NCBI GenBank assembly: GCA_021323795.1
Contig: JAJPKH010000117.1
Span: 1-45,269, forward strand
Direction of reading: 5' to 3'
Length of the DNA: 45,269 bases
Source: Acidiferrobacteraceae bacterium
GTDB taxonomy: Bacteria > Pseudomonadota > Gammaproteobacteria > Acidiferrobacterales > Sulfurifustaceae
A program made the translations under genes and the position numbers. Below, piece by piece: positions 31,522-43,366 of this stretch. Under the pieces are notes generated by a model. That model saw nothing but the letters and a program-made list of their open reading frames with translations, was not told the DNA's origin and made no database searches. The number at the start of each line of letters is the position of its first letter. Within the stretch, counting starts at the first letter, position 1.

Positions 31522-32433
31522 TCATTCCGTTTCGTCGTCCGCGATAACGGCCGCCTTGCCGCTGGGACGCGCGCGGTTGCGCGCCGGGCGTTTCGCCGGC
31601 GCCGCTTCGCGCTTCGACTTCTCTGCGCCGTCCGCGGCGGCGACTTCGGCTTGCGCCGCGGCGCGGCGCTTCGGCGCCACCTTGACCTTCACCGCCTCTT
31701 CCTTGACCTCGACGAAATCTTCGTCGTCCTTGACCTCGGCGATCTCCATTTGCGTGCGCCCGTCGAGCACGGCGTCGCCGGCCGCCTGGGCGTAAAGGCG
31801 AATGGCGCGGATCGCGTCGTCGTTGCCGGGGATGATGTAATCGACGCCGTCGGGCTTGCAATTGGAATCGACCACGCCGACGACGGGAATGCCGAGCTTG
31901 TTGGCTTCGCTGATCGCGATGTATTCGTGACCGACGTCGATCACGAACAACGCGTCCGGCAACCCGGGCATGTCCTTGATGCCACCCAGGCTCTGTTCAA
32001 GCTTGACGCGCTCGCGCTCGAGGTTCAGCAGCTCCTTTTTGGAAAGCTTCTGCCCGCTCGTTTCATCGGCGAGAGTCGTTTCGAGCAACTTCAGCCGCTC
32101 GATGGATTTGCGCACCGTGCGGTAATTGGTCAACATGCCGCCGAGCCACCGGTGGTTGACGTAGGGTGCGCCGGCGCGGATCGCTTCTTCGCGAACGATC
32201 TCCTGCGCCTGTCGCTTGGTGCCGACAAAAAGCACCGTGCCCTTGTTCGCCGTAAGACGCCTGAGGAATTGCATCGCCTCCTGAAACAGAGGCAACGTTT
32301 TCTCGAGGTTGATGATGTGGATCTTGTTGCGCTCGCCGAAAATATAGGGGCGCATCTTGGGATGCCAGAAACGCGTCTGGTGGCCGAAATGCACGCCGGC
32401 CTCCAGCATCTGGCGCATGGTAACAGCGCTCAT
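31522..32433 (-). CDS. rpsB: 30S ribosomal protein S2 with extended C-terminus
   Basis: S2 is a late-assembling small-subunit protein that sits on S1. The first about 235 residues are standard ([58 protein letters not shown]). The last about 65 residues, from roughly 31530 to 31720, are an alanine-, lysine-, arginine- and glutamate-rich tail ending DDETE, not found in E. coli S2 (241 residues). GGAG lies 5 bases before the ATG. A structured leader of about 170 bases precedes it. Confidence 0.97.
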
Positions 32434-32602
32434 CGTTGCTCCTATTGGGTTTTTCCGCCACGGATTCCGTGCATCGACCCGGCAGTCTCACGAAGACGCC
32501 AGGCACCCGGATGCACGCGCAAGAACCCGTGTGAGGGTTGATGTAACCCGCGACCTTCACGGCTCGGCCGCGGGAATTTCTCGTCGTTACTGGCGACGAG
32601 GG
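32434..32602 (-). promoter_or_regulatory. Structured rpsB mRNA leader, candidate S2 autoregulatory region
   Basis: From the predicted start near 32602 to the rpsB ATG the leader can form three stacked stems: CTCGTCG/CGACGAG (32580-32600), CCCGCG/CGCGGG (32547-32574) and AACCC/GGGTT (32524-32539). In E. coli and relatives the rpsB leader is a known target of S2 feedback; similarity here is by position and structure, not sequence. GGAG before the start is the ribosome site. Confidence 0.5.
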
Positions 32603-32608
32603 CCCGCA

Positions 32609-32638
32609 CTTATACCACAATGTCAGGCGCTTAAACAA
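32609..32638 (-). promoter_or_regulatory. Predicted rpsB-tsf promoter
   Basis: On the minus strand TTGTTT (32638-32633) and TATAAG (32614-32609) are spaced by 18 bases. The -35 hexamer is the inner end of one arm of the 16-bp inverted repeat. Confidence 0.55.
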
Positions 32639-32686
32639 TGAGAATCAAGGAGTTTGGTGCGCGCAGCCCTTTGTTTAAGCGCCTGA
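32623..32686. repeat. 16-bp perfect inverted repeat between rpsB and map
   Basis: TCAGGCGCTTAAACAA (32623-32638) and TTGTTTAAGCGCCTGA (32671-32686) are exact reverse complements separated by 32 bases. Each arm supplies the -35 box of the outward promoter on its side. The structure is a candidate operator for co-control of rpsB-tsf and map-glnD, or a promoter duplication by inversion. Confidence 0.85.
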
Positions 32687-32698
32687 ATGACCGACAAT
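32671..32698 (+). promoter_or_regulatory. Predicted map-glnD promoter
   Basis: TTGTTT (32671-32676) mirrors the rpsB -35 box; GACAAT (32693-32698), 16 bases on, matches the -10 consensus at 4 of 6 positions. A start near 32705 would leave only about 7 untranslated bases before the map ATG. Confidence 0.4.
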
Positions 32699-32711
32699 AG
32701 CCGTCTGCTTT

Positions 32712-33476
32712 ATGTCCGCGACGATCAAAACCCCGGAGGAGATCGAAAAAATGCGCCTGGCCGGCCGCTTGGCCGCCGACGTGCTCGACATGATTGCGCC
32801 CCATGTGGTGGCCGGCGTTACCACCGGCGAGCTCGATCGCATCTGCCACGACTATATTGTCAACAAGCAACAGGCGATTCCGGCGCCGCTCAATTACAAA
32901 GGCTTTCCGAAGTCGATCTGCACCTCGGTGAATCATCAGGTATGCCACGGCATCCCCGGCGAGAAGCGGTTGAAAAAGGGCGACATCATCAACATCGACG
33001 TCACCGTCATCAAGGACGGTTATCACGGCGATACCAGCCGGATGTACTTCATCGGCGAACCGCCGATCCAGGCGCGCCGGTTGGTGCAAGTCACGCGGGA
33101 GTGCATGTATCTCGGCATTGAACAGGTGCGCCCGGGGGCACGGCTTGGAGACATCGGCCACGCGATCCAGACGCATGCGGAGCGCAACGGCTTCTCGGTG
33201 GTACGCGAATATTGCGGTCACGGGATCGGCCGGGTATTTCACGAAGACCCGCAAGTCCTGCACTACGGCCGCCCCGGCACCGGCGAAGAGCTGGTCCCCG
33301 GAATGACTTTCACCGTGGAGCCGATGATCAACGCCGGCCGCCCGGAAGTAAAACTGCTGCCGGACAACTGGACGGTCGTCACGCGCGATCACTCGCTCTC
33401 CGCGCAGTGGGAGCACACCGTCCTCGTCACGGAAACGGGGCACGAAATACTCACCCGCTCGCCGGGCGCGTCATGA
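32712..33476 (+). CDS. map: Type I methionine aminopeptidase
   Basis: Map removes the initiator methionine from nascent proteins. The 254 residues have all five metal ligands in context: two aspartates in INIDVTVIKDGYHGDTSR, the histidine in YCGHGIGR, and glutamates in FTVEPM and WEHTVLVTE. NHQVCHGIPG is also typical. No ribosome site is visible before the ATG, which agrees with the short or absent leader. It is divergent from rpsB and coupled to glnD by ATGA, as in E. coli. Confidence 0.97.
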   Translation: MSATIKTPEEIEKMRLAGRLAADVLDMIAPHVVAGVTTGELDRICHDYIVNKQQAIPAPLNYKGFPKSICTSVNHQVCHGIPGEKRLKKGDIINIDVTVIKDGYHGDTSRMYFIGEPPIQARRLVQVTRECMYLGIEQVRPGARLGDIGHAIQTHAERNGFSVVREYCGHGIGRVFHEDPQVLHYGRPGTGEELVPGMTFTVEPMINAGRPEVKLLPDNWTVVTRDHSLSAQWEHTVLVTETGHEILTRSPGAS

Positions 33477-40889: not shown

Positions 40890-40956
40890 AGCTCTGAACA
40901 AGTCTCATTGCGAGGAGGCCGCAGGCGACGACAGGCGTGGGTACTTGTTCAGAGCT
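40890..40956. repeat. 67-bp inverted-repeat element upstream of the kelch gene
   Basis: AGCTCTGAACAAGT (40890-40903) and ACTTGTTCAGAGCT (40943-40956) are exact reverse complements around a 39-base core containing TCATTGCGAGGAGGCCGC. The core resembles dispersed CATTGCGAGGAG-type repeats known from several proteobacterial genomes. It lies between queG and the lipoprotein gene. Confidence 0.7.
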
Positions 40957-43316: not shown

Positions 43317-43366
43317 AGGATAAATCGGAGGATAAATCGGGGACAGGAGGATAAATCGGGGACAGA
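43317..43366. repeat. Three direct copies of AGGATAAATCGG
   Basis: AGGATAAATCGG occurs at 43317-43328, 43329-43340 and 43348-43359; the last two are followed by GGACAG. A fourth copy, AGGATAAACCGG, is at 43520-43531 next to the IS3 remnant. The word lies beside both transposase remnants and probably marks ends of REP-associated transposase units. Confidence 0.7.

Follow-up and report, generated by a model that had tools for sequence, protein, structure and literature searches.

The rpsB and map genes of an Acidiferrobacteraceae bacterium (GenBank assembly GCA_021323795.1) face away from each other, and the DNA between them carries an exact inverted repeat that presents the same hexamer, TTGTTT, outwards on both sides. 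Is this symmetry a device that controls the two genes together, or is it the product of mutation laid over two ordinary promoters? We examined the question in the window, a stretch of 45,269 nucleotides (contig JAJPKH010000117.1), and in related genomes. A first-pass annotation of the window had described mirrored TTGTTT boxes in exact 16-bp arms, and the sequence agrees with this in every respect. The two arms (TCAGGCGCTTAAACAA and TTGTTTAAGCGCCTGA) are complementary at 16/16 positions and are separated by a spacer of 32 nt, within an rpsB-map intergenic region of 278 bp. The spacings that had been given for the two candidate promoters are also correct; 18 nt lie between TTGTTT and TATAAG on the minus strand, and 16 nt between TTGTTT and GACAAT on the plus strand. 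Among exact inverted repeats in the window with spacers of up to 100 nt, this pair is the longest. The minus strand carries rpsB and tsf, and the plus strand carries map and glnD. The coordinates of the features are listed in Table 1. We also observed moderate conservation, within the family, of the flank directly upstream of the rpsB -35 (32639-32660; CAATGTTTTCA-GGGTTTGG-like on the plus strand), to an extent that exceeds the need of a mere gap between promoters.

Table 1. Features of the rpsB-map region, with positions in the window.
Feature	Position	Strand	Description
rpsB (30S ribosomal protein S2), then tsf	31522..32433	-	TIGR01011, TIGR00116
rpsB 5' leader, t44 / S2 autoregulatory RNA-like	32449..32553	-	Rfam RF00127, 40.6 bits against a gathering score of 44
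rpsB -10 (TATAAG)	32609..32614	-	Extended by TG one base upstream; TGnTATAA in 19/19 family intergenic regions
Left arm	32623..32638	-	Holds the rpsB -35 (TTGTTT, 32638-32633) and the first 10 nt of the rpsB promoter spacer
Repeat spacer, 32 nt	32639..32670		Left part flanks the rpsB -35 on its upstream side
Right arm	32671..32686	+	Holds the map -35 (TTGTTT, 32671-32676) and the first 10 nt of the map promoter spacer
map -10 (GACAAT)	32693..32698	+	GACAAT in 15/19 family regions
map (type I methionyl aminopeptidase)	32712..33476	+	TIGR00500

The promoters themselves were examined by comparison within the family, using 20 genomes including the present one, 19 of which yielded both rpsB and map. 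Judged by eye, a TTG-hexamer stands 17-18 nt upstream of the rpsB -10 in all 19. In the four regions that do not have GACAAT, the map -10 reads CAGAAT, GAAAAT, GAAAAT and GAGAAT, the candidates having been picked by a search pattern that itself named those variants. The two -10 hexamers stand at a distance of 81-95 nt in 18 regions; G007 is the exception, with 219 nt. The map -35 of the relatives is mostly TTTTTA-like (CTTTTTAAA) and is less well defined. TTG is found at this position in the present genome, G008, G006 and G018, and also in G010, which is not close to the present genome in the tree and whose map -35 is CCTTTGTTTAA. A generic sigma-70 scan called neither promoter (0 found), and support for the promoters was therefore taken from conservation instead; a terminator scan gave no terminator-like site. 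Because the elements on both sides and the distance between the two -10 hexamers are conserved in the family, divergent sigma-70-type promoters for rpsB and map are very probably real and conserved, and the TTGTTT/TATAAG and TTGTTT/GACAAT pairs that had been put forward as promoters lie inside them.

The symmetry behaves differently from the promoters. When the two promoter strands were compared in the inverted register, the longest common stretch was 16 nt in the window and 4-6 nt in each of 18 relatives. None of these 18 family members, all of which have both promoters, carries the inverted repeat, and G001, the one other genome of the same genus, is among them. A conserved mirror design was rejected, as the similarity of the two promoters within a genome (mean 4.83 nt in the 18 relatives) equals that between genomes (4.92 nt); these pair-identity tests leave out G010, in whose available DNA rpsB was not found. 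In a tree of rpsB and map, the nearest genome is G001 and the next is G004. Neither has the repeat, so that its origin is most simply placed on the branch of the present genome itself. Comparing the intergenic region in relatives had been named in advance as a check on shared control through the repeat, and the outcome speaks against such control, the promoters being kept and the inverted register missing in 18/18.

This result bears directly on the proposal that the arms form a recently evolved operator, on which a dimeric regulator would co-control rpsB and map. The arms are indeed placed symmetrically over both -35 elements, the symmetry is perfect, and a protein bound there could block both promoters. 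In this they resemble the palindromic operators of dimeric regulators found between divergent genes. They differ from these in that there is no conservation, no further site is present, and the half-sites are far apart, at 48 bp from centre to centre. Such a distance is unusual for one dimer. We consider an operator decidedly unlikely, as it is missing in 18/18 relatives in spite of the conservation of both promoters, and as the genome has no other site with 0 or 1 mismatch to the arm that would point to a regulon.

The search for further copies of the arm was carried out at several levels. The exact 16-mer occurs twice in the genome, that is, in the arm pair only, and sites with 0 or 1 mismatch were found nowhere else. 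Two sites with 2 mismatches are present, against a chance expectation of about 1.8 calculated by hand, and with up to 3 mismatches the count is 34, compared with 25 for a reversed control. A regulon of the arm was rejected on these counts, no site beyond the pair having fewer than 2 mismatches. The exact 16-mer is also absent from 368 other genomes of the class, the paired-arm pattern was not found in any of 56 further genomes of the order or in any viral contig, and the 201-bp stretch around the repeat gave no plasmid match. A dispersed extragenic element present at unrelated loci had been named beforehand as the observation that would overturn the regulatory reading; our searches of the genome, class, order, viral and plasmid sequences revealed none, and a dispersed element was rejected for want of further copies in the genome or its relatives. 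Such repeats do exist in this genome, an example being AGCTCTGAACAAGT with 8 sites, which would favour regarding the arms as the remnant of a dispersed palindromic element (MITE or REP). In addition to the missing copies, the intergenic region falls within the family range of 235-493 bp and thus gives no sign of an insertion, and we regard a remnant as extremely improbable. The AGCTCTGAACAAGT repeat itself is a 14-bp inverted repeat with a 39-nt spacer at 40890-40956. With no more than 1 mismatch, it has 8 sites in the genome, compared with 0 for controls; another inverted pair, on contig C165, is among the 8, and the repeat is probably a small dispersed element.

The presence of the repeat in one genome only, a draft of 317 contigs and 89.8% completeness, also raises the question of an assembly or amplification artefact. 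On both sides, however, the sequence that follows the arm is that of the expected conserved promoter and gene. A fold-back chimera would not typically continue in this way, and an artefact seems markedly improbable to us.

We then considered how far a repeat of this length exceeds chance. In 3000 first-order Markov simulations of the 278-bp region, no arm of 16 nt was obtained (maximum 15), and none was obtained in 400 dinucleotide shuffles (maximum 13). The inverted repeat is non-random. Real genomes give another picture. Repeats with arms of at least 16 nt and spacers of 9-100 nt were found 3 times in 294,594 bp from 80 gammaproteobacterial loci and 6 times in 104,322 bp from 29 loci of the same family, corresponding to about 1 to 6 comparable exact repeats per 100 kb of related DNA. 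The earlier statement that the arm is far longer than chance thus stands against random sequence (0/3000), but not against real genomes, in which such repeats are fairly frequent. Exact repeats are in general far above random expectation, and are therefore made by mutational or repeat-copying processes. That an exact repeat covers two promoters does not prove it functional.

The same figures weigh on a coincidence, in which two similar -35 hexamers would happen to be followed by 10 matching nt. Some resemblance between the two -35 elements is expected, and on sequence grounds TTGTTTAA could arise on the map side without copying, as the map -35 of G010 shows. The 8 to 10 additional exact matches, on the other hand, have a probability of about 1e-5 to 1e-6 per promoter pair (calculated by hand with equal base frequencies), 0/3000 simulations reach 16, and no common stretch exceeds 6 in the other 18 relatives. 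Coincidence is in our judgement unlikely.

A further possibility was that the repeat acts as a supercoiling sensor, folding into a cruciform or hairpin and thereby adjusting both promoters. A single strand is predicted to fold as a 16-bp stem with a free energy of -18.2 kcal/mol (z = -4.2), but this fold follows from the repeat itself. The loop would be 32 nt, whereas screens for cruciforms, according to the portion of PMC6060812 available to us, usually take spacers of 0-8 nt, with larger loops also able to form. The structure is not conserved in the relatives, and, as far as the -10 positions indicate, both arms would lie outside the two predicted transcripts. As neither arm should then be transcribed, an RNA hairpin is unlikely, and we judge a cruciform or hairpin function very improbable. 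Since the symmetry is absent in relatives, the 16-mer is unique and similar repeats are not rare, the sequence leaves both a dimeric operator and a functional cruciform unsupported.

The known control of rpsB is exerted by the S2 (t44) leader. S2 represses its own mRNA via the leader, features of which are conserved across gammaproteobacteria, according to the part of PMC10931766 that we could consult. The present locus resembles the gammaproteobacterial rpsB-tsf operon with its S2 leader (t44, RF00127) in that tsf follows rpsB, a leader RNA lies upstream of rpsB and the extended -10 is conserved. It differs in that the leader score is under the Rfam cut-off and in that the repeat lies outside the leader. 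All 9 relatives tested have a t44 leader above the gathering score, that of the window being just below it. The leader is located downstream of the rpsB promoter and has no overlap with the inverted repeat.

The explanation that we favour, and hold to be rather more probable than not, is that the repeat is a lineage-specific product of mutation by template switching, lying over two ordinary conserved divergent promoters. In the ancestor, the rpsB -35 would already have been TTGTTT. Through a short similarity between the rpsB and map promoters, a stalled polymerase would have changed its template and copied some 16 nt of the strand of the rpsB -35 and spacer, inverted, into the map promoter. 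TTGTTT would thereby have replaced the usual TTTTTA-like -35 of map, and the copy, leaving map with a usable -35, would have been tolerated. rpsB would be transcribed leftwards from its extended -10 promoter and map rightwards from its own, with a dedicated regulator or cruciform function being unnecessary.

The direction of copying is suggested by the nearest relatives. On the rpsB side, TCTCATTGTTT is identical and in register in the same-genus G001, and the window and G001 have in common, again in register, the -35 TTGTTT and the TCTCA that flanks it. On the map side, both G001 and G004 agree with the window only over CCTTT. The simplest order is therefore that the rpsB segment is the older one and was copied into the map promoter. 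In G001 and G004, which are too distant for the change of one arm as a block to be visible, the map arm departs from that of the window; an exact match of the rpsB arm to G001 is limited to the part with TTGTTT. In G004, the rpsB spacer includes AAGCGCCTG, 9 nt that also occur in the arm but are shifted by 6 nt. Across 135 genome pairs no common stretch is longer, and a length of 9 was attained in 2 of 20,000 random pairs; the match, being shifted, could be a coincidence. G001 and G004 each have at most 5 nt common to their own two promoters, and neither is the true ancestor. The copying is thus read from its product, and the nearest two genomes, whose map proteins are 86% identical to that of the present genome, are too diverged to catch the event. 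Template switching, the copying direction and an effect that may have been neutral or mildly promoter-strengthening are our inferences.

Events of this kind have precedents. In E. coli, imperfect inverted repeats become perfect through template switching (PMC7202029), and in yeast this process made a repeat with 16-bp arms from one of 5 bp (PMC8604942), as reported in the sections of these papers accessible to us. The present repeat resembles these quasipalindrome mutations in being perfect, in occurring in one lineage only and in having a map-side arm unlike its orthologues. It differs in that neither the ancestral imperfect repeat nor the event between close strains is observed, and in its spacer; template switching favours short spacers according to the accessible section of PMC8604942, and 32 nt is long.

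Even a palindrome that is striking, statistically significant and placed over two essential promoters thus need not be regulatory, since the promoters are conserved across the family and the palindrome is not. If the copying took place as proposed, the locus provides an example of a promoter element moved between divergent genes in one step. A tentative extension, which we regard as doubtful, is that inverted copying between back-to-back promoters can transplant a working -35 and spacer in a single mutation and may so match divergent promoter strengths, map in this case having gained the -35 of a ribosomal protein promoter. In the portion of the literature on rpsB/map divergent promoters that we could consult, nothing on the present case was apparent.

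Several minor features of the region were noted. Only 13 nt (32699-32711) separate the map -10 from the ATG, and the predicted map mRNA would have a leader of about 6 nt with no visible Shine-Dalgarno sequence; in G017 the corresponding distance is only 5 nt. Elsewhere in the window, two exact tandem copies of GGAGGATAAATCGGGGACA are present at 43327-43365, the core of which is found only there in the genome. At the level of the order, 58 loci were collected and used only for exact repeats with arms of at least 12 nt. Five loci without rpsB were dropped (L043, L145, L146, L152 and L179, with L043 and L179 deriving from the same genome, G010). The remaining 53 all had rpsB, and apart from the window only L041 and L178 among them have such repeats; those of L041 lie in the leader region and farther upstream of rpsB. 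In L041 (from G016), L038 and L048, all of genus g6, the intergenic region is enlarged by about 200 bp, and that of L041 contains a 17-bp inverted repeat, together with a 22-bp perfect stem in the rpsB leader region.
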